Positions 3,001 through 64,000 of a DNA stretch of 64,000 bases are shown here, piece after piece. The stretch spans positions 19,780,501 through 19,844,500 of the forward strand of contig NC_088311.1 of NCBI RefSeq assembly GCF_910592395.1. Reading direction: 5' to 3'. Position numbers and translations under genes: made by a program. Position 1 is the stretch's first letter. The number at the start of each line of letters is the position of its first letter. The DNA is from Lineus longissimus. Lineage: Eukaryota; Nemertea; Pilidiophora; Heteronemertea; Lineidae. A model generated the notes under the pieces. The model was not told the origin of the DNA and searched no databases. It saw only the letters and a program-made list of their open reading frames with translations.

Positions 3001-6000
3001 AAAAGAAGTTCCTGCTAGCATTAAGCAAAAATGTGAAACATGTTGAAAATGCTGAGATGCTGGGCACATATGAGGTAAGTTGGTACACTTGATATACAAT
3101 GTAGCAATTGTACCAATTTACCTTACATGTGGATGTGGTGATAAACAATAGGCAGGTTACTGTGTATAGCTACATATAGATTACATGCAATATCAATGTG
3201 ACAACGTGTGCTCCAAGCAGAAAACACTGGCAAAGTGACCAATCTGTGATTGGTGGGGAACAGGTGCCGTAAATTGGGAAGACTCTGACACAAAAAAGAG
3301 TGAAATTAATTGACCCTTGTCGAATCATGGGCAATTTCACTCTTTCTTTCGGACAACATCATGCCTATTCCATGTCTTTCATGGTCTGATCCCCTGGGGG
3401 GGGGGGTCAAAGCAAGGACGGCTTGACCTGTGTATGTTTTTCTTCTTTACAGTCTGCCTAAGTATCCTTGGGCAAGACACCTTTAAAACTCCAAATTAGC
3501 AAATTGCTCCATCCTTTAAAAGAGGCGTAAAATTGAGGTCCTTTGTACCTGATGCCTATGGCAGGGCAAGCAAAAGACTGTGTTTGTTTAACACCCCCTT
3601 CAATCCCAGAATATTACATTCAAAGCTTTAACAGATTAACAGATCAATGACCCCATCTGGATGCCCTAGATGTGGGTCGACTTCAGTGTGAATCAACATG
3701 TTCAAAGGTTACAAGGGTCCAAAGCCAACTTATTTAGCCCTCAAGGGATAGACATGGTGTAATCCTAGTCGTAGTTAAGCCACTTCATGGTGATGTTTGG
3801 ATGGGTCATGGGATGGGAAAGATCAAGAGGGATACATATATGATATCGATGGAAGCTACAATGACACAGAATAAAAGTTCAAACCTGGCTGTCCCATTTT
3901 TGTGGGGCTGAGGTTTCCTATAGAAAATTTAAAGCAATTAATACATTTACAGTAAAATCCCATCATTTGAACTATACTCAGTCCTAGGACAAAAATGGCG
4001 GTGTCTTTGACAGTCTTTTCTAACATGTCCAGTGTTTTCACTCTACAAATAGAGTAAAAGGCCTACGCTGCCTGCGTTCAATGTATATACTTGTGGCTCA
4101 AGTAGACAGAAATAAACAATGCCATAGTGCAATAATCATGCACACAAATTTACTGAAACCTGGCATCAGTCAACACTAGTCTACAGTCCACATAATTTCT
4201 TTCTGGTGGATTCTTTTAATAATTACTACCAGGACATGTACATCAACATGTACATACAAGAATATGAAAATGCTGATCAATAGCAAAACAAGAACATTTC
4301 GCCTACCTTTCTGTGAAGTTATCACGGGAAACTCCCGTAAGTTGATCGTCAATAGTTAAGGTACTGATGTTTAGAGTACTGCTCAACAGATCTTCACTAC
4401 TGCAAGACAAGATGGGAATACTGATGTTTAGAGTACTGCTAAGCAGATCTTCACTACTACAAGACAAGATGGGAATACTGATGTTTAGAGTACTGCTAAG
4501 CAGATCTTCACTACTACAAGACAAGATGGGAATACTGATGTTTAGAGTACTGCTCAACAGATCTTCACTGCTGCAAGACAAGATGGGAATACTGATGTTT
4601 AGAGTAGGCCTACCGCTAAAAAATTAATTTCTACCTCATTTCTAAAACTACTCACCTCGCTCTTTCAATTGGAGGGCGCTCGTTCATCTTGTTGGATGAC
4701 CTTATCTGGCTGACCCGATTGTGAGGCAGCTCCGCACCAGAGAACGTAAGTTTCTTGACAAACTGCGTTGACCTTGGCTTTGGCCTCGGTGGTGTAGCTG
4801 CGACATCCACAGCCTTCTCCGCTTTCTCAACCACATCTACCCCGACTTCAGTTGGCACGTAGTCAACGGGAGAATTCTTTTTCTCTTTGCTTTGGAATCC
4901 CTTATCCCTCTTCTCAGGACTTGTGTCAATTACTCTTGCTTGTTGAATTTTCTCCACCGCTGCATCCAAGCTTCCCAACTCTAATTCTAACTCATGTGGG
5001 AATGGTTCCCTTTGTACTTTATCAACCCGTGGCTCCCACTTCGGTTTGCCGTTCACCTCGTATTTATAATCTATGAGCCAGATGCCTAACAGCACCATAA
5101 ATGGCTGTAACCGCACCCGCATTGCCGGTTGCGGTGCGCCAGTAACAGCGACCCCTCCTTCAAGTGTCACACCAAGAGCAGAGAGATTATGGTGCTTGCT
5201 AGACCATCGCATCAACCAGTCTAACAGCTGAGCTAAGTGTGGATACAACTCCCTCAGATCATCATGAAAGCCAAGGAACTCGCTCATCGGTAGTGCTGGA
5301 GCTCCTGCTTGGCTGGCCTCGGGGGCACTCGGGATCTTTGGACGGAGATCGGACAAACTAAGGCTGCGTTTAGTCTTCAAGTTGATTCTTGGTGATGTAT
5401 CCTCCGCTTCTTGAGAGACTCTAACATTTGCCACACTGCTGCTCCTCTGCAACCGATAGTGACCAAAGTAGGTGTTGTCTTCCTGACTGAAACTGACACT
5501 CCGCTGAATCTTCTTCTCTTGGCCAATTTTGTCCAAGCTGGTTTGACTGGCTGACTTCTTTTTCAGGATCGGCATGACTGGCGGTGGCTTCTCTCCTGCT
5601 GGTCTCAACTCCGAGTAGCTGTGGCTGCGCATCAAGAGCCTGGGTCTCGGTGTTCTCGGAGATGAAGGCGTCGACATGGGCGATTCCTTCAAAAGGGACC
5701 TCCTCGGTGAAGGGGGTGGCGTCCCCGTCACCTTCTCCCCAGTGTGGGGAGACGTCTTCGGGCTGTAAAGGCTCAGATTTTTGTTCTGTTGCAGACTAGT
5801 CATAATCCTATACGACAAAGAACTCAACTCTGCGTTGCATATCTCTTCTGAGAACGGAGGCAGTAGAGGTTGAGCAGGTTTCTCACGATGATGATGCTCC
5901 TCGTCTTGAAGTTTGGAAAATGCAACTGTAAACATGGTGTCAAGGAAATGCAGATACAATCCTTCAATCTCAAACGGCCTGGATCCGATGTGGAGGATAT

Positions 6001-19015: not shown

Positions 19016-22000
19016 ATGACCGATATAATTCGAATGCAGGATTCCAGTCCACCGCCGTCCCCGACTAAACGACGTCACGGGACGGTGCTAGCCCCACATA
19101 CATGTATATTCACCCAGCCAGAAATAACACAGACCTTGCCACAATTTGTTTTCTCATCGCCTGAGCCTACCCGAAAATCATATCATGGCTCAGGGGAGGC
19201 GCCGGTGAATGGATCCCGTGATGGAGGAGTCCCCCCTAATGAAGTGACAATCCAAGGGACCTCGAACGGACCTAGTCAAGGACGAGCGACTCTCTCAGGA
19301 ACATCAGCGAATAAACCCTGTGACGGCCATGTGGCGGTGACACATCCTGAAAACCGACCCAAAGACTCTTCTCCCGGGATCTCGCCCTTCTACGGACCTC
19401 ACGAAGGAAAATGTGCGTGGACACAACCTGTAAATGGATCTAATGCTACTCAAATTATCGTGACTCCGCCAACACCTACTGGCTTCTCCGCTGGAGATCG
19501 TATTGACCTCCCGGAGCGCTTCAAGCAAACATGCTTTAAAAAATCAGCCATCAGGGAGGAGATTGATAGTGTGACTGAGTTGAGAGAAAGGGAGAGAGAC
19601 CTCACCACTGCCATTGGTTGGATACGCCAAGAAATCGTAAGTAGGTTGTGGTCACAGTGTCTCACGGTAACTCGTCCTCTGATTACAATGCTTTTGCCAA
19701 AATACAAAAGGCTAGTTTCGCGCAACCTGGTCCTGTGCTACTCATCTTTGCTTAGCTGCACAGGGAATTTGGAAAATTATTTAAAAAGTATATTGTGAAA
19801 ACTAATGAAGTTGATGAAATCAAACCAACTGAAATCCAAAAGAAGTGACAGAAATTTGTGATTGACGTTGTTGAAGCTATTCAAAAACAAAAAGTGTAAA
19901 ACTTTTTTTTGTTTCGCCAATAGTACGCATATCATGATATTCCATGCTCCCATTTGGTTGTTCGAAATTAGTTTTCATGATCGAGGTGTTTTTGCTTCGA
20001 GAAAGCTAGTGTATCAATCCCCTCGTGGCCGACCATAAGTTGAATTCCTCGAATGAAATCAGTGAAAGACTCAATGAGGCAAACGTTTAGAACTTACTGA
20101 GGCTTTATAGCGTAATTTGAAATCCAAGACAGACCTTATATGTTTATAGTTTGAAGTTCTAATGTTGATCTTTTAATCGTCGACCAGGGGTTTGGTGATC
20201 TCAGGGCCAATGCCATTTGGGTGTTTGGTCGGGCCTGTTGGATTAAGCTTATGATTACGTGTCCCAATATTCGGCTTTTTTCCAGTCCTCTTGACTACTA
20301 CATGTACTAACTAAGAACTTATTTAGTTGCAACATGATGGTTAACGCATCAAAATTGCGAGGGACCTTCACCATTGTCACCTGTCACTTGCAGCTTTTCC
20401 TAGCCCAGCTTCCGTACCATTGCGGTGCACTGCAACCATCTTACACGGGTCTTGCCTCTTCTCTTACCACCAGCGTCACTCCGGGCGCTCCGGTCCTCAC
20501 TTAACCGAGACGAAAATCATCGTTGGCTGTGACAACAGACCAACCTCTGTTGTCCGGCCCACCGAAATAAAATTCTAAGTAAGCATTACGATGTTGCAGG
20601 ATTAATCATAAATGATTTTAGCCAGATATGTCTTTGTGATGATATATATAACGCGATAAACGTAAACGTATCGGAGTGTAGGCTACCCTGGAGAATATAA
20701 ATCATGAGTAATCTCCTTCGAATGACTTGATTCATGCTATTAGCTGTAATTAAGCACTCAGACTCGAGTTACCAAAATTATCCAATTAATATCAATTTTA
20801 TCAAACGAGAAATGACGCGACAAGCCTTCCGGTGGAATCGGTTCACGTTTGCTGATTTGGTATAGGATGACACCTAGGTCGAAAAACTATTAAAGTTTTG
20901 AAAATTCATACAAGTCTCAGAGACATGAGCCTTACATTACATAAGCCTTACAAAAATCATCAGCAAATATCAAAACTGGAGTGGATATAGGTGTGCAGAT
21001 TAGACAACACTGCACCTTATGCAACTCTTCTTCGTTATGCCGAAACTTTGTACCGTAAGAAAACACCTTTGTTTCAACTACATGTATAACGAGCATGACT
21101 ACGAACTCAAAATCATCATTCATCTACAACATTATTAAGACGTTTAGTGAAAGTTCGGTTTCAAAACCGCCAGCCGTTTTATAAATATCGACAGGTTTAG
21201 CTTTAAAATGATATTGGATTTGTGCCTGCATGGACGACAAAGGCTTAAAGTCCAGTACCCTGATAACTGTCGCGTGTACTATCTAACCGTAATGGATATC
21301 CGTTGTATTTTCCTTTCACCTCACAAAACCAAATGAAAAAGACGCATGTCGAACCCTTTCTTCAGCGCAACAACACTCCGCTTCACTCTAATTGCCCTAA
21401 TCAAAACTTCTTTGTTGGAAAAATCAACCTTTAGTGCATAAGTCGAGATTCCAACATAACTGTATTGTGATATGTTGACCTTCTTTTATGGGGTGTTCAG
21501 AATTTATGAATTGATGTTATTATTGCTTAAATAACTGAGAGGTAATTTTAGATCACTGCTGAAATAAAGTCGCCAATTTGCCATTCCGCAACGGGACAAC
21601 TGCTCGGCTGTACAAAGGTTATGGCGACAAGTTGCTGGCCGATGGGTATTGGCCGAAGTGACTGATTGGCTCAACCCCATGATGTAACGCTGTTTCCCGC
21701 GGTTTGGTTAGTGCTTCACAAAGTATTCGCTACATGTATATGAACACATTATATGTTAACACCATCAGCGCCGAACCACGTAGATCTACGTGGCCCAAAT
21801 CCCCCTCTTTGAGCTGCTTATCGAAGTCTCAAGGCCTTCATGAAAGAACTACGCCATCGCCACCTTCAGGGCAAGGAAGGAACTGAAAAGACCTTTTCTT
21901 GTCTTTTCAGTTTCTGCCTTGCCCTGAAGATGGCGATGGCGTAGTTCGTACATGAAGTCCCTGAGATTCCGATAACCAGCTCAAAGAGGGAGGGGATTTG

Positions 22001-23519: not shown

Positions 23520-26487
23520 ATGTCGGCAGCAGGGAACCCCACTCGTGGCACGTTACAAGCCATCAAATATAAGCGAGGTAGCTTGGAAATTCTTGATCAA
23601 CGTATTCTTCCTCACGAGACCAAATATCTCAAGGTTGAAGTGACTCAAGATGCATGGGAAGCGATCAGAGAGATGAAGGTTTGTGCACATTTTTATTCGT
23701 ACGGCGATGAGTTGTGTGTTAGCTGTATACATTGTATACGCTTTAATGGTGACAGAGCATGTGCCATGTGGCTGAGAAGTTCAACAATATCTAAATCCGA
23801 ATCTGTTCTCCCAGGTTCCGCATTTCTGCAAAAGTACCTAGGTAGCCTTCGGTGCTGGTGCAGGATAAAAGCTTGGTTTTAAAATTGTCAACTTAAAAGG
23901 AGGTCGGTGCAGGATAAAATTGGTCTTGGTGGTTAAGAAGACTGAGGTTCCTGGAGTGCTATACAGTGCTTTTAGATCAGATTTGGGATGTAATGGGGTG
24001 TTCTGCCACACTCCCCACCACTTCCCCCACCACTTCCCCCAGAGGGCTTGTAAATGTGTAAATAGAGGCCGAGTGGATATTTTTCAGGATGGGTATTTTC
24101 TTTTTTTCTTTAGTTGATATCAACACTTCAGTACGAGGTTCGGCTCTTTCCAGGTGCGTGGAGCTCCAGCCATTGCCATCACAGGCTGTCTCAGCATTGC
24201 TGTAGAACTCGACAAAACCGAGAATAAATCTAAGGAAGAGCTATGCAAGTTTGTAAAGTCCAAGTTGGATTACCTGATAACGGCAAGGCCAACTGCTGTA
24301 AATATGAGGGATGCCGCAACTACTGTCATGATTTGGCTAGAGGCTGTGGCAGGGGATGAGAAAAAGAGCCCAGATGATGTTCGATTGTTGTAAGTAATAA
24401 TCACAGCAAGAATAAGCAATGATTGCCTATTTGTTCTTGGCATTGATGTATATATATATGTATGGGAATATCCATATGCACAATTTGTTGATATTCAAGT
24501 TATTCGCTACATGTATACAAAATTGTAAATGAAGCGTGTTAATGTCAGTCATTATAAGTCCAATAAACGTTTTCAAGTTTGTTTGGAAACCTTGTTGTTA
24601 CCCATGTAAAATGTAAAGCTGCCTTGTTGATTTCTTCCAGGTTGATTGAGTTTATCGAAAAGATGTTGGAAGATGATGTACAGTGTAATAAAATGCTTGG
24701 CCGCATTGGTGCGGATGACATCCTGAGCAGGTGCAGCCAGGTGTCTGTCGGCGTGCTGACCCATTGCAATACTGGCTCACTAGCAACAGCTGGTTATGGA
24801 ACTGCATTAGGTTTGTAATTGTAGTCATTGCACTGAACATTTAAATTCAAATTACGTGTGCTGGCTCTTGAGTGAAACCTGATGATGATGGTATAATTGG
24901 TGCCTGCATGTAACGACTAAAGTATACCATATGTTTTACAGTAGTTTCATTGCGAAGTACCAAATACTAAATTTGCATGGCATAGCGCCTACATTTGTCC
25001 CCCCTACAAATGTCCCCCGCTTAATCACAAACCTTATTGCCCATCATCTTTCCAGGTGTAATTCGCTCGCTATTTGAGAGAGGAAAACTACACCATGCCT
25101 ACTGCACAGAGACTCGCCCATACCATCAAGGATCGCGTCTGACGGCATTTGAAATAGTCTATGAACAAATTCCAGGGACGTTGATATGCGACAGTATGGC
25201 AGCTATCCTCATGAAGAAACGTGATATCTCTGCTGTTGTTGTTGGTGCTGATAGGGTCGTTGCTAATGGTGATACAGCTAACAAAATCGGGACCTACCAG
25301 TTGGCAATTTTGGCTAAATATCATGATATTCCCTTTTATGTGATTGCACCGTCCACATCGATAGATTTGAGTATGCGGACGGGCGACGAGATACAAATTG
25401 AGGAGAGACCTCCAGAGGAGCTGGTTCATATCAAGGGGATCAAAATAGCGGCAGACGGTTAGTTCAGTCTGCTAGTGCTTAGTCTTGGCATTTTAACCCC
25501 GGAAATGTCCCCTGCCTCCTAAAAAAAAAATTGATAATGTTTTTAGGCATTATTTGATATTCTGACCCATAGTCAAGGCCTTAAAAAGCCTTTTTGCTTC
25601 TTAAATCTTTATGTCCCTGTTCAGCTACCGCGGATCATGATGCACACCCCTCCCTAATTCATGAAAAATCATTAAAACACACCTCCCTGGAATTTTGAAG
25701 AGAAATGCAATGCACACATCCTCTTATTCAATCATGTGCACTCCCAGCCGTGCTTGTCATGCTTTTAATCGGCTTGTCAAAGTAATAGAAGCTCATACCG
25801 GTCCACCACAATTGAACTTTAAATGGACCACATATCATATGATCGAACGAGCCTGAATTGAACTCCAATGATACTAGTCGTAGTTCCACCTATCATAAAA
25901 CCCCGTGTTTTTTCAAGACCCGTGTCTTCGCCGTGTGTCAAAAAACCCGGGGCGCACTTACACCTATCAGTGGTGTTAGATAATGGTTAATAGTCCCGGC
26001 GACAGGTGCGCTGTAGATAGGGAGTTCTCCTGTGTTTCTTTCCCGTTTGAGGGGAATTTCGAGTGCGCAATACCGAGGCAACTACACCGCGCCATCTGTC
26101 ACCGGGTCTTAGAACTTGCAATTGCCGTGTCTATTAGATTCCACCTGTCAAAAACCCCGTGTTGAACACGGGTCTAAATTAGCCCCCGATTAGCCCCATC
26201 GAGCTCGATGGGGCTAATAGACACGGGGATTTGACACACGGGTCTATTTAGACACGGCAATTCATAGGTGTAAGCGCAAAAGACACGGGGATTTGATAGG
26301 TGGAAGTACGACTACTATGTATTGATGGTAGCTCTCTTATTTCTTGATCATTTCAGGTATAAACGTTTGGAACCCTGCCTTTGATGTCACGCCTGCGAAA
26401 CTCATCACTGGAGGAATCGTCACAGAGTATGGACTTTTCAAGCCTGAAGAAATGGAAGAACGGCTTCTGGCTGTGAAGAAGAAATAA
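23520..26487 (+). CDS. MRI1: Methylthioribose-1-phosphate isomerase
   Basis: Interconverts 5-methylthioribose-1-phosphate and 5-methylthioribulose-1-phosphate in the cytosolic methionine salvage pathway. Exons 23520-23678, 24154-24389, 24641-24810, 25056-25457 and 26357-26487 join in phase to 365 residues, close to the human length. Family signatures are intact: [18 protein letters not shown] after exon junction 1, the catalytic cysteine (about C174) in [18 protein letters not shown], and the catalytic aspartate (about D254) in [19 protein letters not shown]. The C-terminus [19 protein letters not shown] is also typical. The start ATG follows a short GC-rich leader and gives the expected N-terminus. 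Intron 4 holds a MITE. Poly(A) signal at 26707. Nothing suggests inactivation. Confidence 0.97.
25875..26314. mobile_element. 440-bp inverted-repeat MITE in MRI1 intron 4
   Basis: Terminal inverted repeats TAGTCGTAGTTCCACCTATC and complement, imperfect over about 35 bp. Internal subrepeats share ACACGGG/CCCGTGT, and there is a central palindrome GCCCCATCGAGCTCGATGGG. Noncoding; the target duplication is unclear. Confidence 0.8.
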
Positions 26488-29555: not shown

Positions 29556-32500
29556 ATGGCGAATGGATTTACTCAACAAAACCTTCCGAAAATCGATGAG
29601 TTTTGTCCGGCAGAAAGATGTATGTATCCATTGGAGGAGTGTAGCGCTGAAATACACGAGGTAAGGAGTATAGGGTGTGGGCCTGCCGGCGGTGGGGTGG
29701 GGTGGGGTGGGGTGAGGTGGGGGCTGGGAGCTTTATGCTCGTTCGTATGTAGAGGGAATACGATTGCGCACTTTTCAAAACTTAGAAATTGCTCGTAACT
29801 GCGCTTTTGACATAGATTACCAAGATTAGATAGAATCGAATCCATACTTGATATTACTAGCACCAAGCATAGATACTGGGTGATATGAATAAAGACTAGC
29901 AAATGCTTTTACTAAAACTTCCTGTACATTTATTTACACTGGGCCTTTCTGTACAAAACTGAAGTATAAGCAATTGCTAGACTTTATTCATATCACCCAC
30001 TGTATATATTACGAATCTATTCTTGTAGCATGACTATGCATGTCAAACAGGGGGGACTATGTGAGGACGCAGGATAAATTGTTGTATTCATGTGACTAAT
30101 ATGCAGAGTCGGGGGACTGGGTCGTGTTTTGTTTAGTGATAAATATATATCTGGTCTGAGCGTGAACATACTGTCGGATAAAAGAGACCCCTATTAGCGA
30201 TTTCGTGCAACTTTATCTTGCATACCTGGCTGCTGCCTATCCAGGTTGACTCCCTTCAATTGTTGAAAAGTGGGCTATATAATAAATTTGGATAATATTC
30301 ATATAAGTATATTTTATCACTTGCATTTAATTGTACCAGGCACGTCAAGTATACATGGACATGTGCATTTAAGCTGTAAATTTGCATGTAAGCTGGAAGA
30401 CTACACACACATACATCCGCATGTTCATCCAGCCCGTATTTTGATACATGCAGTCGATGGTTATACCACACATCGATCATATTTTATGCATGTACTGGTA
30501 CAGTCATGACAGTACATGTACTTAAAATTCGGCGTTGTCTGGCACGCTATTCGAGCTAGCAAATATCGGTTATAACCTGGTGTACCAGTTTTTGCTCTCA
30601 CGAGTGTCCCCAAAGGCATTCACTGCATGGTTGATACATTCATCACTAATTAGAGAATGATGTAGTAGTAATGATGAAGTAGTGTGAAGTTTTGGCTATC
30701 TTACTGATTTTTGTGACAAACACAAACTAAACAAGTCCTGCTTAAAAAGGTACTGTCATCAGTGTTGACATTGGCCGCGTGATAATCTTTAATTCGGGAA
30801 TTCATATTATACGTTATGATATATCAGCCCACCCAATGTTGTATACTAAATAGCCTGGATTTGTAATCTTATCTGGAACCGAAAAATTAAAAACCACATT
30901 TTTGCTGAACACTATAAATACATGCACCAAGTTGTCTGTACTGGACTGCGTACTGGAATGCCAAGTCGCTGTCCCGCGTTCAAGGTTACCAAGAAAGTTG
31001 GACATGTCGGAGTTTGAGACAGTGCCGATCAAAACGGTGGGTATTGCGTTCTTTTTTTGGGTTTACGTATTAACGGTCATGAATGTTTCAGTTCATGAGT
31101 GTTTCCCCTCATTATCTGGGAACTCTGAAAGATATATTGACGGTCACGTTTTCCCTGTGTTTCCCCATTTCCTCTACTCTATTGATTAAAAAGTCATGGT
31201 CTCTCAATTGTTGTCCGTTCTCCATAGGCCTGCTACACTATTATTAGGCCTATTTATTGATGTCCTTTATTGATTCTTAATCATAAATCATAAAGCACAG
31301 GGTATTGTCTGTGCCTGTGGTTGCCTCAGTGGTGATAGTCTTTTGTTTGGTTTGTAAACGGTACTTCACTGACACAGCTATGTAAAATCATCGCATTCCT
31401 TGGGTAAGACGAGTCTCTCAGTGACGCGATGAACGTTAGAGTGATAAACGTGGTCCCCCTGAATCCGAACTGGACGAACTGAACTACACGCTGAAAGGCG
31501 TTTGAGGTGTACCACTCCGGGGGATGGTCCGAACCAGCGCAAGGACGAGTTCAAGGAACTTTTAGGGCCGGTACAGAATGTGATTCAGAGTGGATTGTGT
31601 CTTAATTGACATAATAAAGGCACTACATGCATGAATTGGAAAACGAAAGACCCTTATTCAGGAGTATCTTACGTATGTGAACATGTTTGCTGTTGCAGAT
31701 TCCGGCGTCGTCTTACCACTGTCATATGGAAATACTCTACACAGGCTATACATTATACATATACTGAAACGCATGGATATGAAGGATCTTTCAAATTTTA
31801 TCCAATTTTGCAAAAACTAAAATTCTCCAATATAACTTTGGACCTACTGAATACCGAAGCTTCTGATTTGAACCTCGGAAACTATTCACATCCCCTTTAT
31901 TTCTCTGACGCGGTTTCTCAGTTTCTCAACTTTTGTTTTTCAGTCCACCATTGAATTGGTTATTAAAGATAAAAAGGTATGTAGATATGAACGAACTAGG
32001 CTTTAAATTTGGCGAATTGTCATAGTCTCGCCCTATATTCATATCGTTTTCTGCATATATTTCAACCCTCGGCTCTCTGTATTGCACATGTGCCTGCAAC
32101 ATCACACCCTCCTCCCACCCGAACAAGGGTCTAAGAGACAGTCCTAGAAGCCAGGGTGAATTTTTTGGCAATAACTGTTTTTGCCCTTAAGTATTCTGAC
32201 AGACTATATATCCTAGCCCCTTTAGGGTCAATATCTCTGGGCTATAGGATCAGTGGTGGTGGGCGGGTTGTCCTTTATACCAATACCGCAAGATCGCGTA
32301 TAGCACATACCATCTGTCGAGATATAGCTTTCGTATGTCTATTGCGTAAGGCTATTGTATTCTCGACAATTCTCTTTCGCGAAAGTGTACTAGGCCTATA
32401 GGAAGTTTTCGCGAAGCGCCCGAAACGTTCACGTGAACGCTTATCCCATTGTTCGACTTTGTTATCAGGAGGTCGAACAATGAGATAGGTGTTCACGTGG

Positions 32501-35500
32501 ACGTTCGAGGCGCTTTGCAAAAACTCCCTATAGCATCACTTGTAAAGCAAGGTCGTTTGTACACCGTCAGGATGCACCGGTATCTTAAAATGTTATAATA
32601 ATGATCGATCCATGTTTTATTGCAGCCCTGTTTAAAACCATGGATGAAAGTGCTCATCGGTTTGGGCCTACTTGTAAGTTTGTCACTTTTCTTTCCCTAT
32701 TTAGGGCCAACACATCATGGCCTAACATCTGAACATTGGATCGATTTTGTCATTTCACAAACCCGCAATATAATTTCACCATCTGAAGCATCTTCTATTG
32801 TATCTGCGCCTCATGATCATGATATATGTTCCACATCGCTGGTTCCAAAACAATTTAAGTTCACCTTACTACATGTTGTTTATAACCAGTATATATGACT
32901 CCCTGATTCTGATTATCGAATAGAAATATGACCAATCGTTTAGCGGGGGGGGGGGGGGGGGGGGAGGGGTGACTTACTGTTGTTGAGGTATTCATCTTTC
33001 TGCTTCAGGCCTTCATTTGCTTTGCCCTCGGAATTGGCATCTATTATTCGATAAATATGTGGTCAGGAATTGGCGAGTGGGTCCACACGCCATGTGCTAC
33101 AACCGATGACATCCAGTCATGCCCAGGAAGGTAAGTAAGTCGTCACTCGGAAAGCCTTAAAGTTGTCACTTGGATAGCTTTAGGGCCCATGCAGTTGAGT
33201 CTTTTTTTTTATACGAAAATGGCTTCTAACTAGACCATGACTTATCCTAAATGTTGTAAAATCACTAAACTACAAACGGTGCACTAGAACGGATTACCAT
33301 TCGGTCAAAAAGCAACCGTTGGCCTAACCTGAAACTCACAAGCCATATCCAAAACTAACTTGCCAAACTAGCAAAAATTTATTATTTATTTTAGGTCAGC
33401 TTTAGCGTGATGCTACATTTGGCGGCGCTTGCTGGCGAACAGGTGTGATGTCTTTCTGGCCACCTACATGTGCCACGCTCGAGTTGTCTCAGTATGACCC
33501 ACCTGAGTCTGACCACTTGCAAATTTCATGATTTCCTTCAGTTATGCAAAGACCCCAATCACCCTCCTAATCTCGTGCGATGGATTTCTCGCGAGTTACC
33601 TCCTGAAGAACGTCACACCCACCTTCAAGAGGTTTCAGAAGTGCGGCGTGTCTGCTCCGTATATGAGACCGGTCTACCCAAGCAAGACATTTCCCAACCA
33701 CTATTCTATAGCGACGGTAAGTGATGAGGTTTCTGAAAAAAATCAGCGAGAAGAAAAATATGGAATGAGAAACATTTACAACTACATGTGCATTCAGATT
33801 CGAGTGGCCAGAGCTTACATTTTACAATAGTTGGAGGAGGTCCGAAAGTCGGCGTTGAAGTGCGTTGACGTCGTTCGTGCACGGCCCCAAATATCACTCG
33901 CACAAAGTGCACTGAACAGGATGATGTGTGTTTTTATATCAAATGCAAACGTTCATCAATTCAGTTCTTTAAGATTTCGCTGAACGACTGTATTCAGCCT
34001 CAAGGTGACGACGGGGAGGGGGTCGAAATGACAACTTCTGTAATGATTGTGTCCCCAGTACAAATTCAACTTTTGTTAAGTATGCATGTTTGACTTTTTG
34101 CGCCCTTGTTTTCTTTTACAGGGTTTATTCCCGGCGTGGAATGGCATCACTGGCAATATCATGTTTGATAAGAAGTTGGGAAAAGTGTTCAGGCTGTCCA
34201 CCTCGGAGAAGTTCAACCCAGAGTGGTACCAAGGCGAGCCCGTAAGATAACGTAATAACTACTGGCTCGCACAAAAAAGATCATATACTTTTGATTTTGA
34301 ATAACTGCCACCAATTCCGGATAAACAATCTTGACACTGACCCTCCTCACTTTTTGGATCGACCCCGCCCACCAGTTAACATTGCCAAAATTGTAATCGC
34401 ACCATTCCAACACTTCCGACAAACGGGCACTATGCTAGTTTAATGACGATAACATCGATTGAAAATTCATCCCTTTCAGATTTGGAACACAGTCACAAAG
34501 CATAATAAAACGTCTGCCTCGTATTTTTGGGTAGGCTCTGATGTCCCCGTTGAAGGTAAGTCCACGTGATTATGTAGTTTTTTCGGCAACTAAGAAAGGT
34601 GAATTTACTATGTATGAGCTTCATGCCATTTGCAATTTCCCTCAACTTTCACATACACTCTTCAAAATAAAGGTTTTATAGCTTTTGAAAATACCTTTGA
34701 GGTTTTTCAGTAAACACGAATGTGTACCTTCTCGAGGTTTTCAAATACAATGTACTGAACTTCCAGCGGTATTGCCTCCGTAACCTCGCGTTGTCTGTAA
34801 AGCTTAGCAATGTCAATGCATTGAGGGTCAAGATATGCCATCATTTTAAAGTTAGCAGTGAACACTACATCAACGATGTAGTCCAGTCATTTCTCCATAA
34901 CGACCGGGGTCGCAGTTCGCAGTTCGCACTGTGGCACAAGGCCTTGTCCCACCACGACAGTCGCGGTTGCCAGCGAAGGAGTCTCAACAAGAATCTCTTA
35001 GATGTTAACTTGCTTTTACCTATTTTCAGGGATGTACCCGAAGTACTATAAAAACTTCACATCGTAAGCACACAAAACTTTTACGTTCAACACTTTTTAG
35101 TGCCTGATTGATTGTTAGTACGTTTCTTTGACTCATCGAGACGAATTTGTCACCTTGATTATGTTAAAGGGACACTATGGGCGGGAGCTCGAGTGTCAAA
35201 TTGGTTAACAATATTGAGTTGAGAGTTGAACATCGACTAGGACATTACTGGCTCATATAGACACTCAGGTAGGGACCGCCGCTTATATTCGCATCCGACA
35301 GACTCCCGATCATATTCATACCTTTTTTGTGAAAAAGAGGAATTTTAGTTCCCAGAATCCCGCGGGTACACCAAAAGAAAACAAGTCCTCATCCGGGCAG
35401 GATCGAACCCTGGAAAGCCAGCATTGTTAGACACTGGGCTATGCGGCACCTCGTTATAATCATTGAGCTACAATGTAACTTACGAGGAACCGTACTTCAT

Positions 35501-44029: not shown

Positions 44030-45545
44030 TTTCTCCACGGAATTAAGTATTTTCTCCGCGGAAATAACATTTATCTCCACGGAAATAACATTTATCTCCA
44101 CGGAAATAAATACTTTTCTCCACGGAAATAAATACTTTTCTCCACGGAATTAAGTATTTTCTCCGCGGAAATAACATTTATCTCCACGGAAATAAATACT
44201 TTTCTCCACGGAATTAAGTATTTTCTCCGCGGAAATAACATTTATCTCCACGGAAATAACATTTATCTCCACGGAAATAAATACTTTTCTCCACGGAAAT
44301 AAATACTTTTCTCCACGGAATTAAGTATTTTCTCCGCGGAAATAACATTTATCTCCACGGAAATAAATACTTTTCTCCACGGAATTAAGTATTTTCTCCG
44401 CGGAAATAACATTTATCTCCACGGAAATAACATTTATCTCCACGGAAATAAATACTTTTCTCCACGGAAATAAATACTTTTCTCCACGGAATTAAGTATT
44501 TTCTCCGCGGAAATAACATTTATCTCCACGGAAATAAATACTTTTCTCCACGGAAATAAATACTTTTCTCCACGGAATTAAGTATTTTCTCCGCGGAAAT
44601 AACATTTATCTCCACGGAAATAAATACTTTTCTCCACGGAATTAAGTATTTTCTCCGCGGAAATAACATTTATCTCCACGGAAATAACATTTATCTCCAC
44701 GGAAATAAATACTTTTCTCCACGGAAATAAATACTTTTCTCCACGGAAATAAATACTTTTCTCCACGGAATTAAGTATTTTCTCCGCGGAAATAACATTT
44801 ATCTCCACGGAAATAAATACTTTTCTCCACGGAAATAAATACTTTTCTCCACGGAATTAAGTATTTTCTCCGCGGAAATAACATTTATCTCCACGGAAAT
44901 AACATTTATCTCCACGGAAATAACATTTATCTCCACGGAAATAAATACTTTTCTCCACGGAAATAAATACTTTTCTCCACGGAATTAAGTATTTTCTCCG
45001 CGGAAATAACATTTATCTCCACGGAAATAAATACTTTTCTCCACGGAATTAAGTATTTTCTCCGCGGAAATAACATTTATCTCCACGGAAATAACATTTA
45101 TCTCCACGGAAATAACATTTATCTCCACGGAAATAAATACTTTTCTCCACGGAAATAAATACTTTTCTCCACGGAATTAAGTATTTTCTCCGCGGAAATA
45201 ACATTTATCTCCACGGAAATAAATACTTTTCTCCACGGAATTAAGTATTTTCTCCGCGGAAATAACATTTATCTCCACGGAAATAACATTTATCTCCACG
45301 GAAATAAATACTTTTCTCCACGGAAATAAATACTTTTCTCCACGGAAATAAATACTTTTCTCCACGGAATTAAGTATTTTCTCCGCGGAAATAACATTTA
45401 TCTCCACGGAAATAAATACTTTTCTCCACGGAATTAAGTATTTTCTCCGCGGAAATAACATTTATCTCCACGGAAATAAATACTTTTCTCCACGGAAATA
45501 AATACTTTTCTCCACGGAATTAAGTATTTTCTCCGCGGAAATAAA
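44030..45545 (+). repeat. Left-arm minisatellite of the foldback element
   Basis: About 70 units of 19-22 bp with core TCTCCACGGAAATAA, in ordered variants (ending AATAC, AAC or AAGTA; CCACGG or CCGCGG). Variants recur in a higher-order pattern of several units, which points to multi-unit duplication. Confidence 0.9.
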
Positions 45546-46261
45546 TAATTGATTCCGCTGATATGATTGGTCCTGCATTTTAGAGGACGAGGTCAAGGTG
45601 AAACTATTAACCCTTAAACCCCAACCTTGCGGTAGGCTCGGGAACCAAGCTGTACAGGCGCTGCCCGCTGGAACACGAGGCCGCTTGTCAATCCCGTTTG
45701 ACATTGTCAGATCTGACTATACGTGTATAGTGTTGGCATGAAGACTGTGGAAGATGTAAGTAACACGATGATTGTCAGATTTGATACGTTTTGAATCATA
45801 AAAATGCAGTTGGTAGCATCTTTGTAGAGTGGCCTAGTATCAGTGAAGAAAACGGTACGTGGAGACCCACTGCCGATGTTATGTATAGCTAGCTATCGCG
45901 CGCAGTAGCTAGCTATACATAACATCGGCAGTGGGTCTCCACGTACCGTTTTCTTCACTGATACTAGGCCACTCTACAAAGATGCTACCAACTGCATTTT
46001 TATGATTCAAAACGTATCAAATCTGACAATCATCGTGTTACTTACATCTTCCACAGTCTTCATGCCAACACTATACACGTATAGTCAGATCTGACAATGT
46101 CAAACGGGATTGACAAGCGGCCTCGTGTTCCAGCGGGCAGCGCCTGTACAGCTTGGTTCCCGAGCCTACCGCAAGGTTGGGGTTTAAGGGTTAATAGTTT
46201 CACCTTGACCTCGTCCTCTAAAATGCAGGACCAATCATATCAGCGGAATCAATTATTTATT

Positions 46262-46893
46262 TCCGCGGAGAAAATACTTAATTCCGTGGAGAAAAGTATT
46301 TATTTCCGTGGAGATAAATGTTATTTCCGCGGAGAAAATACTTAATTCCGTGGAGAAAAGTATTTATTTCCGTGGAGATAAATGTTATTTCCGCGGAGAA
46401 AATACTTAATTCCGTGGAGAAAAGTATTTATTTCCGTGGAGAAAAGTATTTATTTCCGTGGAGAAAAGTATTTATTTCCGTGGAGATAAATGTTATTTCC
46501 GTGGAGATAAATGTTATTTCCGCGGAGAAAATACTTAATTCCGTGGAGAAAAGTATTTATTTCCGTGGAGATAAATGTTATTTCCGCGGAGAAAATACTT
46601 AATTCCGTGGAGAAAAGTATTTATTTCCGTGGAGAAAAGTATTTATTTCCGTGGAGATAAATGTTATTTCCGTGGAGATAAATGTTATTTCCGCGGAGAA
46701 AATACTTAATTCCGTGGAGAAAAGTATTTATTTCCGTGGAGATAAATGTTATTTCCGCGGAGAAAATACTTAATTCCGTGGAGAAAAGTATTTATTTCCG
46801 TGGAGAAAAGTATTTATTTCCGTGGAGATAAATGTTATTTCCGTGGAGATAAATGTTATTTCCGCGGAGAAAATACTTAATTCCGTGGAGAAA
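46262..46893 (-). repeat. Right-arm minisatellite of the foldback element
   Basis: Reverse complement of the left-arm units, but only about 630 bp long against about 1,515 bp on the left. The arms therefore changed length independently, or the assembly collapsed one side. Confidence 0.9.
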
Positions 46894-47029: not shown

Positions 47030-47807
47030 CTAAAGCCTGCACCACACGGTGAAAATTTGCGTGACGCAAGTGACACGCGTGCATGTTGCGACAGGCAAAT
47101 TCTCACTGTGTGGGGTCGTTTTTTGCTGCGTATCTTCCCTCGCGAGTCGAGACGCAGCCGATCTAGCATGTTTGATATTTTCTCGACACGCGAGGAAGTT
47201 AATCACCGTGTGGGGGCTACCTGCAGCAATGTTGCGCGAGTTCGACGAATCACAACAAGCAGATCGGTCACATGATTTATAGGTCAGTCACATGATACCA
47301 AAATGGCAGCTCTGTGGAACTGGCGATACTTCATGGGGTCCTCCTCCCGCAATTCAGCAATTAGATTTGCATAGGCCCCCTTATCCTCTCTTTTCTGAAT
47401 CCATGGCCTTGTCCAAAGACTACGGTCAACGCGGCGCCGCCTCCGACGGAGTAACAGCAGGAGAATAAGGGCAATTTGGTCTTCTTGGTCCATAATACTT
47501 CTCATAGGATTTGACAGTTCCCGGGCGCTGCCATTTTGGTATCATGTGACTGACCTATAAATCATGTGACCGATCTGCTTGTTGTGATTCGTCGAACTCG
47601 CGCAACATTGCTGCAGGTAGCCCCCACACGGTGATTAACTTCCTCGCGTGTCGAGAAAATATCAAACATGCTAGATCGGCTGCGTCTCGACTCGCGAGGG
47701 AAGATACGCAGCAAAAAACGACCCCACACAGTGAGAATTTGCCTGTCGCAACATGCACGCGTGTCACTTGCATCACGCAAATTTTCACCGTGTGGTGCAG
47801 GCTTTAG
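47030..47807. mobile_element. Non-autonomous PIF/Harbinger-type element with 281-bp terminal inverted repeats
   Basis: Arms 47030-47310 and 47527-47807 are near-exact reverse complements with ends CTAAAGCCTGCACCACACGG and complement. The 216-bp centre carries the start of a HARBI1-like nuclease (separate entry). The palindromic ends hide the target duplication. It starts 71 bp after the foldback element. Confidence 0.85.
47284..47505 (-). pseudogene. HARBI1-like transposase N-terminal fragment
   Basis: 73-residue frame from ATG 47505: an acidic start, a leucine run, then RRRRRR, LWTRPWIQKREDKGAYANLI and AELREEDPMKYRQFHR. This matches the N-terminus of PIF/Harbinger nucleases (Arg-rich run, W..RPW...R...GAY..L..EL...D...F..F.R). 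After FHR the frame runs into the inverted repeat and stops, so the DDE catalytic domain is missing. An internal deletion derivative is the simplest explanation. Confidence 0.75.
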
Positions 47808-59167: not shown

Positions 59168-59889
59168 AGGGCCGTTTAGACGACAGAAAAAAGGCCCGAT
59201 GAGATCCGATCGAATCCGAATGGGGTCTAAATTTCCCTGGTGTAAACGCAAACCGATCGGGTCTCATGTGGTCCCATCGGGTCTTCAAGTGGTTCACCTC
59301 TTTTGCTGGTTCCATCGGGGCTAATCCGGATGCATCCGGATGCATCCGGATCAAATTTGGTCGTCTAAACGCGATCGGGCCTAATGCAGTCTTATCTGGA
59401 CTAATTTTTTTACCTACACGCATGCGTATTGGATATGGTACTTCGGCAATACTTCCTTTCATTATAAACGCGTGTATTTTCGCGGGAATTAATGTCGTTT
59501 TGATTGTCAGTTTTATAGTATTTTCTCTTGGCTTATTTTCATTATTCCAATATGGTGAAGGATAAGTTCACGGACACGGTTGTTTTCGATCTCATACATA
59601 TTTGGAGCGATCAATCCATTCAGCGGAAGCTGGACAGCAGCTACCCCAAGAACGAGCTTGCCTAGTACCATTATAACCCGCATTGCGGCGCTAAATCAGT
59701 GACGCCACCGCGACATCCTGCGGATTATTGTTGGAACCAAAAGAAATTAGCCCACATCAGTCCTCATTGCTGTTAGCGTCTAAACGGGTACATTAAAATG
59801 AGACCACATCCGGTCTGGAATGGGGTTCGATCGGATTGGATCGGAATGCGGTCTTATGCGGTCTTTTTGGAAAGCGTCTAAACGGCCCT
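59168..59889. mobile_element. 722-bp non-autonomous DNA transposon with Myb/SANT-like gene fragment
   Basis: Ends AGGGCCGTTTAGACG and complement. Subterminal regions carry repeated GATCCGATCGAATCC, TCTAAACG and GATCGGGTCT motifs in both orientations, and three GGATGCATCC units near 59325. The right part carries a short coding fragment (separate entry). The target duplication is unresolved. Confidence 0.75.
59552..59665 (+). pseudogene. Myb/SANT-like DNA-binding domain, N-terminal fragment
   Basis: 37-residue frame from ATG 59552: VFDLIHIWSDQSIQRKLDSS. This fits the first helix of Myb/SANT-like or MADF domains of transposon-linked DNA-binding proteins (LIxLWxDxxIQxxL). Stop at 59663. The remaining helices are missing. 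Harbinger transposons encode such a protein beside their nuclease, which suggests a Harbinger origin. Confidence 0.5.
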
Positions 59890-60347
59890 GATGGGTAGTA
59901 GCAAATGGTTGGAAGTTGTGATTACATTGTATCTGATTTGCCCTCGCTTGGGTATCGTTGTTTATAACTGATTCATTAATATCACCAACGTAAAATAATC
60001 ATGTTTTTCTGGATAAAAATCCTGACAAATTAGTTTGGTCTCTGCTTGAAAGCACCCTATCTGTCTTCGGTTAATAACGTAGATTTTTTTTAAATCACCC
60101 ATCAAAAAACATAAAAATTGCCGTTAATTCCTTTTTACTGACTAGTTTTACAATCACGAATGGTCTGCCGCATGTTCACAAGGTCTCTGCAGCACTACAT
60201 CATAATTATTGGCTACTCCACTCTGGGTCACCCTCCGTCTGGCCCCAATCCCGCAGGGGATATTAGGCGAAACAGAATTTGCCTGCACGTCGTTACAGTC
60301 TTGGTATACTGCCCTTATAGACAAAAGACGATTACCCATCATGTGTG
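59890..60347. other. Intergenic, nothing supported
   Basis: No gene, repeat or motif I can support between the 722-bp transposon and the hairpin that precedes the intronless gene cluster. Confidence 0.5.
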
Positions 60348-60477
60348 AGAATATATGTATTGTGGTGGTAGGAATCTAGGTAATTCTAAGCTATTTTAAC
60401 AAAAGCCCTTACAGGCCTTTTTGTCTCAAATTAGCTTAGAAACCCCTAAGAACCAGACACCACAATACATATATTCT
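60348..60477. repeat. 130-bp imperfect hairpin before the intronless gene cluster
   Basis: AGAATATATGTATTGTGGTG pairs perfectly with the right end. Pairing continues imperfectly (TTCTAAGCTA, ACAAAA, GCC) to a 6-base centre CTTACA. It ends 133 bp before the first ORF. It may mark the end of the integrated element, with a terminal repeat starting AG..., or be an unrelated palindromic MITE. Confidence 0.7.
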
Positions 60478-60610
60478 ATCATTCTTCAGTGAAGCGTTGC
60501 AGTGAAATGGTAAGGGAATACCAGAGTTCAATGGGTTATTCCATTAAAATAAATGGTCTTTTTACTGTCTTCATTAACCAAAATTCAAGGAAAAAATTCA
60601 AGTAAATTAA

Positions 60611-61489
60611 ATGTATTATCCAATAGCAAATCAACATAAAAGTAAATTCACCTATGACTTCTTTAATTTAGAAGTAACTGTTAATACTAATAACTTCTTC
60701 AGACTACAAGAAACTAAGATAACACCTGGGTTTTTGAGCCTGAAAAATAAGAAAGACTGTCTGCTACTGGAAAAGAATCCATTATCGTTTTACCAGAACC
60801 AATTTAACATGGCTGTTTGGTTTGCTACAACAGGTTGTGGTATTTCAATAGACGATCACTTGAATCACAGTGACCCATTGTTAAGGTCAATTTACAGGTT
60901 TCATGTTTACTATCAAATATTGAAGATCATGAAGAATCTAGAGATACCAATTCCAGGTGAAAGTGATTTTAATGAGACAAACAATAACATTAACCGTAGG
61001 AAACTAGGAGGGTTATTGATTGAATTTGGTTTAAAAGACGAGTACGATTTCTCGGTGTTTGAAAATAACGGTGGTTGGAGGTCATGGAGTGTACCGGATT
61101 ACAACCCGAACATAACTGATCCCGGATATTACATCAATGATTCTAAAATCAATTTCTTCCTCATGCAAGTTCATGAAAATAGAATGCCACCGATGTTCAG
61201 TAAAGACTGGGATGCTGGAATGGCTAATTTCAAATATCCAGATATTTTCATCAAGGATCATGTCAGGAGACACAAGAATGTATTTGATGTAATTACACAA
61301 AATGAATGTCAAACCTATCAACAATTCATGATATTTAAATCAAATGGTTTCTCTAATCCTGGAATAGAGAGGTTGAATGATACAATAAGAACATATGTTT
61401 ACTGTATTCTGGGTGCTCAGGCGTTGACCAGAACACCAATAATTGTAATGAGTACCGGGTACAGAATTGGATGCACAGAAGGAATTTAA
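60611..61489 (+). CDS. Unrecognised protein of the intronless viral-like cluster, ORF1 (292 aa)
   Basis: Uninterrupted AT-rich frame from the ATG after an A/T-rich leader (AAATTAAATG). The protein is rich in Asn, Phe and Tyr, with no signal peptide or clear membrane segment. Noticeable strings are NMAVWFATTGCGISIDDHLN (about 77-96), YRFHVYYQILK and RRKLGGLLIEFGL; overall it looks like a folded structural protein rather than an enzyme. I know no named family. Its end overlaps ORF2 by 23 nt in the +1 frame, and its last residues after about position 284 look unlike the rest, so the true protein may continue in ORF2. It is the first of four tandem same-strand ORFs and has no introns, unlike every host gene here. 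Confidence 0.75.
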   Translation: MYYPIANQHKSKFTYDFFNLEVTVNTNNFFRLQETKITPGFLSLKNKKDCLLLEKNPLSFYQNQFNMAVWFATTGCGISIDDHLNHSDPLLRSIYRFHVYYQILKIMKNLEIPIPGESDFNETNNNINRRKLGGLLIEFGLKDEYDFSVFENNGGWRSWSVPDYNPNITDPGYYINDSKINFFLMQVHENRMPPMFSKDWDAGMANFKYPDIFIKDHVRRHKNVFDVITQNECQTYQQFMIFKSNGFSNPGIERLNDTIRTYVYCILGAQALTRTPIIVMSTGYRIGCTEGI

Positions 61490-62006
61490 CAAACTATTAA
61501 AGGATTCGATTAATCAACATCCTGATATTCCCACTTCAATTCAAAGATACCAAAAAGCAGTGAGTGACACTCATACAAGACTAGATTATGTAATATCACC
61601 AGGATTGTATGTCATAGGATCAAATATGGTACTCGTTATTGGTAAGCTGGATAACTACAATAATAACATTTTAATAGCGCCAAAAAATGCTAAACCCGGT
61701 AAGAATGACATTAACCACAAAAAGACCTTACCACCACCACTGATGGAAGGAAATAGCTCTAAGAAAATAAGAGTTAAGAGTAGCGTTGGTACTGTCAAGA
61801 CGGACAAAGTCCCGAGAGCAAAGCTCGAGACCAGTCATAAACCAAAGAGTAATGTTGATACACCAAAAACAACTGAAACCTCAAAGAATACTCCTACTGC
61901 TACTAAACTTGACACCAAAGTTGAGAAGGAGGATGATACTCATGAAACAATTAAATTCATGCTTTACTCAGTTGTTGGTACATTGATTGTTTTTATGGTT
62001 AGATAA
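61467..62006 (+). CDS. ORF2 of the intronless cluster, probable continuation of ORF1 (179 aa frame)
   Basis: The open frame begins after a TGA at 61449 and has no ATG until residue 54 of the frame (the listed start codon is TTG). It overlaps ORF1. An independent start is therefore doubtful; a one-base indel or a +1 ribosomal frameshift between 61452 and 61486 would make it the C-terminal part of ORF1. Contents: a helical segment (residues 1-40), YVISPGLYVIGSNMVLVIG, a Lys/Thr-rich linker (about 75-155), and a hydrophobic C-terminal segment FMLYSVVGTLIVFMV (about 164-178), as in a tail-anchored membrane protein. The family is unrecognised. Confidence 0.6.
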   Translation: MDAQKEFNKLLKDSINQHPDIPTSIQRYQKAVSDTHTRLDYVISPGLYVIGSNMVLVIGKLDNYNNNILIAPKNAKPGKNDINHKKTLPPPLMEGNSSKKIRVKSSVGTVKTDKVPRAKLETSHKPKSNVDTPKTTETSKNTPTATKLDTKVEKEDDTHETIKFMLYSVVGTLIVFMVR

Positions 62007-62016
62007 ATAAGTAATT

Positions 62017-63708
62017 ATGGCTGAAGGAGGTGAAAATTATGAAATGGATGATTACGATTCACAATCATCATCATCATCATCAGGAACTTTTGAACAAATT
62101 CTAGAAATGAGAAAGGATGATTTAATTAATCAATATATTCACGCAAGATACAACACAGGTGAAATCAATAGAACTTTTCAAGATGACGGCACAACATACA
62201 ACACAGGAGGTGAATATATCCAAATGGATGAGATAGATCCTAATACAGGTGAAATCAATAGAACTTTTCAAGATGCCGGCACAACATACAACACAGGAGG
62301 TGAAAATCTTACTACTGAAACTTCATTCACTAAAACTCCAGAAAGGCCAGGCACAACATACAACACAGGAGGTGAAAATCTTACTGATGAAACTTCATTA
62401 AGTACACCTCCAGAAAGAGTAAGAGGTATTGTCCCTGAATTGATGGAAAAGGAGTTAAGTTACGATACAATAGAGGATAAACTTGATACAGCATTGGGAG
62501 GATCAAACTGGAATTATGACAAGAAAAAAATGAGTAATCTTGCACCACACATTAGTTACAATGGAAACAAACTTTATTACGATCCGAAAACAAAGTATGA
62601 AGTTGATTTGATTAAAGATAAACTAGAAAACAAAAATTTATTTGAATATCCTGATAAAAATGGAGAAAAGATAAAGTTAATTCCTTTAACTAAGGATAAT
62701 GGAAGCTTCTATGCTGAAGGCACATTAAAGACTAAGTTTGGTACTAGATTTGCTAACATGATTAGAGGTATGATTGCACCTGACCCACCAGTAAGGGAAC
62801 CTACATTAGTAACCCCTGAAACACAGGCAGTAATTAATGAGGTATACAGTTCAAACCAACCAATAGATAAATTAATTGATTCTAATGATGATGAACTTAA
62901 AACACTGGGTTTTACTGAATCTGCCTTGAGAGAACTTAGAGGGTTAAAACCGGCTGGTGATGATCTAGCAGCAGTAAAGAGGGATAAGGACATGCAAATA
63001 GAAAGCCTAGAAGAAGAACTTAATAATTTAACAAGAGACTATGTAAAGTCTGTAGAAGAAGATACTGAAGATAAAGGAGAGTTGAAAAAGCAAATAGATG
63101 AACTAAATGACAAATTGTATGAGGAACAGTCAAAGGTATGGAGGTTAGACAATGACAGGGAGTCACAAACTAGAAGAATTAAACGTTTAATTGTTGATGT
63201 TCTAAAGAAACCAGATTCAACTATTCCTCTGAAGGACAGAATAAAGTTACTTTTTAAGACGTATGGTGTAACCATTAGCGCCATAATAACAGCTGTTGTA
63301 ATGACATTTACAACTCTAGGTCTTAGTATCAGTAGTGCTTTAAGTGGTGCCACTAAATCTGTAAAACCAACTCCAGGACCAGACCCAACTCCAGGACCAG
63401 AACCAACTCCTGGACCTACACCAGAACCAGGACCAAAACCATCAATACCAGATAAAGTAAAAGAAGGTCTCAAGAAGTTTGCTGAATGGCTAAAAGAACT
63501 AGCCAAGAAATCAGCTGCGGCTTTACCGGGAATCATCGGTTCTATCGTATCATTTCTCCTGAAAACAATTGGTGCAGTTGTTGGCTCTCTAGCCGAACAT
63601 CTGATCATAGCAGTTATTGCTATTGTGAGCTCCATAATTTATGGTTTAATTGGGGGTGTTAAAGCCTTAAAATCACGTAAAACAGTAAAATCACGTAAAA
63701 GGTCTTAG
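62017..63708 (+). CDS. ORF3 of the intronless cluster: repeat, coiled-coil and membrane-segment protein (563 aa)
   Basis: Starts 10 nt after ORF2. Order of parts: acidic/Ser-rich N-terminus (1-25); three copies of a repeat containing TTYNTGGE (about 59-66, 89-96, 113-120), the first two also sharing TGEINRTFQD; a mixed region (135-320); a coiled-coil-like charged helix (about 323-392); a hydrophobic segment (about 417-440); a Pro-Gly hinge of TPGPxP units (451-475); an amphipathic Lys-rich helix (480-500); two further hydrophobic segments (about 503-526, 528-546); and a basic tail KSRKTVKSRKRS. This looks like a membrane-interacting virion or morphogenesis protein, but no family assignment can be supported from sequence alone. 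Confidence 0.8.
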   Translation: MAEGGENYEMDDYDSQSSSSSSGTFEQILEMRKDDLINQYIHARYNTGEINRTFQDDGTTYNTGGEYIQMDEIDPNTGEINRTFQDAGTTYNTGGENLTTETSFTKTPERPGTTYNTGGENLTDETSLSTPPERVRGIVPELMEKELSYDTIEDKLDTALGGSNWNYDKKKMSNLAPHISYNGNKLYYDPKTKYEVDLIKDKLENKNLFEYPDKNGEKIKLIPLTKDNGSFYAEGTLKTKFGTRFANMIRGMIAPDPPVREPTLVTPETQAVINEVYSSNQPIDKLIDSNDDELKTLGFTESALRELRGLKPAGDDLAAVKRDKDMQIESLEEELNNLTRDYVKSVEEDTEDKGELKKQIDELNDKLYEEQSKVWRLDNDRESQTRRIKRLIVDVLKKPDSTIPLKDRIKLLFKTYGVTISAIITAVVMTFTTLGLSISSALSGATKSVKPTPGPDPTPGPEPTPGPTPEPGPKPSIPDKVKEGLKKFAEWLKELAKKSAAALPGIIGSIVSFLLKTIGAVVGSLAEHLIIAVIAIVSSIIYGLIGGVKALKSRKTVKSRKRS

Positions 63709-63755
63709 GTGACCTTCTATCAAAACAATGTTTAAAAAATAATTATTATGTAAAT

Positions 63756-64000
63756 ATGAATAAATACATCTCATTAAAAGACTATTATTCTAGTGAGTCG
63801 GACTTCGTCCTGAGAGCAGAGCTCGAGTGGAACAATGAGAATCTTAAAGGATACATTCGTCCTAGGGTCATGGATAGAAATTTTAGTGAAGAAAATGTCA
63901 GCAAGAATTATGACAGTGGGAAATTTGATAAGCCTACTGAGACAATCAAAGTAGTCCTGCCAAGAATGAAAGAATATGACGTCAGTACCAACACTAATGC
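63756..64000 (+). CDS. ORF4 of the intronless cluster, N-terminal part, runs off the window
   Basis: Open from ATG 63756, 47 nt after ORF3, to the window edge with no stop (81 residues visible). It starts MNKYISLKDYYSSESDFVLR; later VVLPRMKEYDV. Soluble, mixed charge, no motif recognised. Same strand, spacing and AT-rich composition as ORF1-3, which supports a compact polycistron-like or virus-like gene array continuing to the right. Confidence 0.65.
   Translation, partial: MNKYISLKDYYSSESDFVLRAELEWNNENLKGYIRPRVMDRNFSEENVSKNYDSGKFDKPTETIKVVLPRMKEYDVSTNTN

Follow-up and report, generated by a model that had tools for sequence, protein, structure and literature searches.

Polinton/Maverick elements possess terminal repeats and a 6-bp target duplication. 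Among short palindromic units, the GC clusters are mitochondrial and mostly intergenic, and the Rickettsia palindromic elements are bacterial, are inserted in frame into protein genes and are longer than the 30-nt unit described below. To our knowledge, such in-gene or mobile palindromic units are known only from mitochondria and bacteria. Adintoviruses contain an OTU-like PolB domain and a hexon match, according to the available part of their description (PMC11071296). The yeast GC clusters are flanked by AG or ACT, and the one chosen for study was 42 nt long, according to the available part of that account (PMC4478555).

In our study, a window of 64,000 nucleotides (C4:19780501-19844500) was analysed. 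The locus beginning at position 60348 is best explained as the left end of one copy of a Polinton/Maverick-type element that was recently amplified in a 391-Mb genome; the probability of this explanation as a whole, including the account of the 30-nt unit, is roughly 0.85.

Ends and extent of the element

Matching inverted repeats and the TGTGTG nucleotides were present at both ends, so the element measures 17,523 bp in the present copy, bounded by terminal inverted repeats and a 6-bp target duplication (Table 1). The terminal inverted repeats were about 190 bp long and their outer 130 bp formed a palindrome, whose DNA fold gave a z of -8.8 (0 of 200 shuffles as good) and which was found again at the right end, inside the matching inverted repeats. 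The earlier note had placed the probable left end of an integrated element at the first nucleotide of this palindrome, and the palindrome proved to be the terminus. The 130-nt palindromic terminus was present in all eight left ends inspected (the present copy included), on eight contigs and with differing flanks. The contaminant join that had been named as a danger was not found, and the same terminus in different surroundings on eight contigs speaks against it. The distance from the terminus to the first gene was 263-288 nt in five of these copies and 598-902 nt in three. The left terminus was read in eight copies, and the target duplication and both ends in one. Integrase-mediated integration with a 6-bp duplication is supported by this anatomy; the element would spread through insertion by its integrase and self-encoded replication, and virions may form.

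Five further fold-backs were present elsewhere in the window, and 27 of 1596 tiles folded at least as well as the palindrome by RNA energies. These had suggested that the palindrome was an unrelated MITE, a candidate overturned by the matching right end.

Table 1. Features of the element in window positions, followed by the genes to the right of ORF3 in their order; positions with the prefix L009 or L010 refer to those sequences
Feature	Position	Strand	Remark
Left target-site duplication TGTGTG	60342..60347	.	right copy at L010:5371-5376
Left terminal inverted repeat	60348..60538	.	reverse complement at right end, L010 up to 5370; few indels
Near-palindrome (hairpin), outermost 130 bp of terminal repeat	60348..60477	.	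DNA fold and right-end match
First gene (ORF1+ORF2)	60611..62006	+	broken in this copy, 463 aa in many others; helical domain, C-terminal hydrophobic segment
30-nt unit in first gene	61802..61826 (25-nt core)	+	8 of the 21 copies read do not have it
Second gene (ORF3)	62017..63708	+	match to no Pfam family above cut-off
Third gene (ORF4), start	63756..64000	+	390 aa, continues to L009:1928
30-nt unit in ORF4	63800..63824 (25-nt core)	+	corresponds to L009:800
ORF4 390 aa, then 283 aa, then 168 aa with hydrophobic segment			rightward of ORF3
337 aa		minus	after 168-aa protein
1044-aa PolB-like frame			after 337-aa protein
219, 89, 328 aa		minus	after PolB-like frame
Integrase, 383 aa		minus	after 219-, 89- and 328-aa frames
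ATPase, 206 aa		plus	after integrase
152, 255, 418 aa		minus	after ATPase, toward right end

Gene content and recent amplification

The earlier note had described four long frames on one strand as four genes. The frames exist and are beyond chance, as only 3 of 2000 Markov shuffles of 60348-64000 reached 184 aa and none reached 292 aa (observed, 565 and 292 aa), but the count of genes was reduced to three. ORF1 (60611-61489) matched residues 1-278 of the closest relative, the 463-aa protein P0001 (276/278 identical), whereas the frame of ORF2, which is open from 61452 with its start at 61626 and its end at 62006, matched residues 280-463 (179/184 identical). Since these are successive parts of P0001, ORF1 and ORF2 are, by alignment, one 463-aa gene, interrupted in the present copy by a short indel at their junction. 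The AT-rich composition was confirmed (GC 0.353-0.358 in 2-kb tiles from 60001 on), although it is a weak sign, because values as low as 0.364 occur in other tiles of the window. The possibility that the ORFs are exons of a host gene was not borne out, their relatives being single uninterrupted proteins, and a domesticated host gene was ruled out by the broken frame and the many copies.

In the genome of origin (391 Mb, 30 contigs), ORF1 has at least 134 matches with identities of 96-100%, a lower bound obtained from 134 scored matches among 655 candidates. In 112 of the 134 the frame was 451-489 aa without a stop, in 10, including the present copy, it was below 451 aa, and 12 contained one stop. 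At the end of the first gene, 21 copies compared over about 415 aligned columns differed by a mean of 2.3% (0 to 4.9%). Judged by the number and identity of the matches the amplification burst is young, and the small difference between copies marks it as recent.

When ORF1 was compared with 5.8 billion proteins, 32 of 262 candidates qualified as relatives at E <= 1. A search based on an alignment gave 52 at E <= 0.001 among 4,245, and the two together gave 55. Of these relatives, 39 were at least 350 aa long, and 34 of the 39 ended in a hydrophobic segment. ORF3 consists of an acidic repeat-bearing N-terminus, an alpha/beta domain, a helical hairpin, hydrophobic stretches connected through a Pro/Gly-rich linker, and a basic tail. 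Scoring was limited to the candidates sharing most words; of 7,994 scored, 84 were relatives of ORF3 at E <= 0.01. Three of these are proteins named as Mytilus edulis, one of which lies on an 82-Mb contig. An LPxIIGS-type motif was present in 77 of the 84, with a hydrophobic segment before it and another at or after it. The products of the first two genes are undescribed proteins with hydrophobic segments. They may serve as inner-membrane or entry components of a particle, the likeliest role for them, although we regard this assignment as tentative. Assemblies of Bartonella and Sulfurimonas were found among the database matches. One Bartonella assembly name carried partial proteins of both families, and the gene order was not visible there; a shared source for the two fits. 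A bacterial origin was rejected, as these matches probably come from animal DNA that strayed into the bacterial assemblies. The two conserved families (55 and 84 relatives) provide handles for finding such elements elsewhere, and the ORF3 family has a named carrier in Mytilus edulis.

As the earlier note had stated, no polymerase, integrase, ATPase or capsid gene was found in the part of the element within the window. It had proposed a search to the right for hallmark genes, within about 40 kb, and integrase and ATPase-like genes were found less than 18 kb away. The integrase matched rve (PF00665, 1.1e-11, 45.3 bits against a cut-off of 32.6) and contained a C-terminal chromodomain (Chromo PF00385, 1.2e-7, residues 342-380 of 383). 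The packaging-ATPase-like gene matched Pox_A32 (PF04665, 6.8e-15) above the cut-off, and Zot just over its own cut-off. Together with the terminal repeats and the 6-bp duplication, these two genes support the viral or Polinton-like origin that had been proposed. The 418-aa protein is a weakly supported candidate for the capsid protein (Capsid_N, 0.0033, 17.4 bits, below the cut-off of 24), and its 255-aa neighbour had no Pfam match. The 1044-aa frame contained palm-motif-like stretches, read by eye; in Pfam it matched no polymerase family, and Endonuclease_7 (21.3 bits) was under its cut-off of 23.6. No penton or cysteine protease was recognised by Pfam among the proteins scanned, with the 89-aa frame left out, and neither the window genes nor the 390-, 283-, 168-, 337-, 219-, 328-, 152- and 255-aa proteins scored above the cut-off of any family. 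In the PolB-like frame, the alignments of eight of nine alignable copies ended at L009 6215, where the ninth had 414 extra nt, and the present copy seems to be without a stretch that other copies have. With its first gene broken and this stretch seemingly missing, the present copy is probably inactive on its own.

A 30-nt double-hairpin unit in the genes of the element

The unit of 30 nt contained two mini-hairpins, GGAC-loop-GTCC and GAGC-loop-GCTC, and consists of 26-27 nt with a duplication of 3-4 nt. When up to 6 mismatches were allowed, its 25-nt core was found 20 times in the reference copy, with all six orientation/phase classes represented; 17 of these sites were inside ORFs, which indicates no preference for genes, as ORFs cover 15,943 of the 17,523 nt. 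The core was absent from 72,058 nt of host DNA examined (60,347, 4,624 and 7,087 nt) and from six shuffles of L009. The recurrence of peptides such as LCSQD, LRPES and LSGQSP in unrelated element proteins is due to a single DNA word lying in different frames. When seven unit motif peptides were tested on 139 database proteins, one peptide was present, in P0001 only.

Clean presence or absence of the unit was found at four sites. At the site in the first gene, 13 of 21 copies were filled and 8 missed exactly the unit, a ratio that is no frequency because the empty copies were selected for a shorter frame. At L009 797, eight of ten copies were filled, one was empty and one unread; at 2259 the numbers were five, four and one (n = 10), and at 5920 five, three and one (n = 9), the tenth copy, L042, not being alignable there. 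At these three sites the boundaries of the 30-nt step can be shifted by 4, 3 and 4 nt, respectively, which would be a sign of a short target duplication, though some plain deletions also give a short slide. At the first-gene site the 3-nt duplication was exact against one of the eight empty copies, and seven have A where G is needed. One copy contained a unit near L009 4843 that is not in the reference. The changes at L009 ~879-936 and 5197 were more complex than clean 30-nt steps. Since the step equals ten codons, the frame is kept on gain or loss; frames are not always kept, as ORF4 ended early (153 and 157 aa) in two of ten copies and its start string was absent from three of ten.

As read from the aligned copies, genes have acquired or lost the unit at several sites since the copies diverged. 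In this it resembles a mobile mini-element such as the mitochondrial GC clusters, here inside a nuclear virus-like transposon. We would give even odds to a stronger statement, namely that a 30-nt parasite is actively spreading in transposon genes with 3-4 nt duplications, adding ten-codon peptides in frame, so that viral proteins are rewritten by one mobile element nested in another. In the preferred explanation, the unit is a second, smaller parasite or signal living inside the element. It may be copied at hairpins by template switching during replication or repair, or inserted at breaks; either route would account for the short duplications, both orientations and the tandem runs with no dedicated enzyme needed. 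A second possibility is that an element-encoded nuclease mobilises the unit. The 30-nt step may itself be under selection, as genes would be broken by any length that is not a multiple of three.

Two other explanations of the unit were weighed. Selection may maintain it as a functional signal of the element (an origin, or a site for packaging or recombination), with presence and absence arising from loss and gene conversion instead of mobility. The many units on both strands, restricted to the element within the DNA examined, agree with such a signal, as do L009 2042, filled in all ten copies, and 5144, filled in all seven readable ones, so that mobility is not shown for every unit. We consider this explanation unlikely, because the sites lie within genes in every reading phase, near-identical copies differ in filled state and the clean sites slide by 3-4 nt. 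Less likely again is a dispersed minisatellite, in which tandem arrays expand and contract by slippage and spread by conversion; the tandem units at L009 1821-1901 (one to four per copy in 30-nt steps, ten copies) are what it predicts, whereas isolated units that have clean empty alleles at separate sites, and the occurrence of both orientations, are against it. If the unit is mobile, a nuclear virus-like element would join mitochondria and bacteria as a setting for the phenomenon, and new protein segments could arise by a simple route. With more than 100 near-identical matches, this one genome offers a natural series for following, site by site, how a minimal palindromic unit is acquired and lost in genes.

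Comparison with known systems

The size of 15-20 kb, the rve integrase, the packaging-type ATPase and the PolB-like protein are likenesses to the Polinton/Maverick elements, as given in the available part of their description (PMC4028283). An undescribed virus lineage outside the Polintons might be proposed from the lack of any Pfam family above cut-off for the window genes and eight further proteins and from the lack of any relative found in viral_contigs, but the integrase with rve and chromodomain, the A32-like ATPase, the terminal repeats and the 6-bp duplication are strongly contrary, making such a lineage very improbable. The high identity of the copies might suggest that a free virus in the sample had produced them as artefacts of assembly; this can practically be dismissed, since the flanks differ at all eight left ends and a 6-bp duplication is present where both ends were read.

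The Polinton/Maverick-type element described here differs from the known ones in that the outermost part of its terminal repeat forms a 130-bp palindrome, its capsid protein is a weak candidate and no penton or protease was recognised among the proteins scanned, its coding sequence contains mobile-looking 30-nt units, and its first gene is present in more than 100 young copies. A narrow literature search found no description of hairpin units of this kind in Polintons. With the adintoviruses it shares an rve integrase with a C-terminal chromodomain and candidate membrane-active and coiled-coil capsid proteins, as far as the available part of that source describes them (PMC11071296). The 30-nt unit is nearest in kind to the mitochondrial GC clusters and to the Rickettsia palindromic elements, the latter likened by description, not by sequence. 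The yeast mitochondrial GC clusters and the double-hairpin elements of Allomyces are likewise short GC-rich units with presence/absence variation and short flanking direct repeats, in the available part of the account (PMC4478555), whereas the present unit is nuclear, lies inside the genes of a virus-like transposon and differs between copies by a fixed step of 30 nt.

Variation among copies of the Polinton element

Comparison of the copies of the element in the same genome has shown that the N-terminal part of ORF3, its second gene (window 62017 on), was strongly divergent among the copies L011-L030, and the end of the gene preceding ORF3 was nearly identical in the very copies in which this part diverged. 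The N-terminal part of ORF3 is a hypervariable segment. The distance from the left terminus to the first gene ranged between 598 and 902 nt in the copies L003, L004 and L006 and between 263 and 288 nt in the remaining five of the eight inspected copies; the larger distance represents either an insert or a longer leader.

Element proteins in bacterial assemblies

Fragments of the proteins of this element were found in bacterial assemblies, under Bartonella sp. names (P0015, P0018, P0025, and P0033) and under the name Sulfurimonas (P0038), which suggests contamination.

Repeats and a host exon in the window

The perfect 15-nt repeats perhaps delimit a small DNA transposon as its termini, and the near-perfect palindrome is a fold-back element or an assembly artefact.

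Repeats and a host exon, with window positions
Feature	Position	Details
Host exon	25025-25459	IF-2B family match, 2.2e-45
Short fold-back repeats, MITE-like	21803-21990, 29869-30007, 32396-32533	
Near-perfect palindrome	45479-46322	two 422-nt arms, 99%, without spacer
Inverted repeat	47030-47807	293-nt arms, 98%, spacing 192 nt
Perfect 15-nt inverted repeat pair	59168-59889	~720 bp between members; left of Polinton
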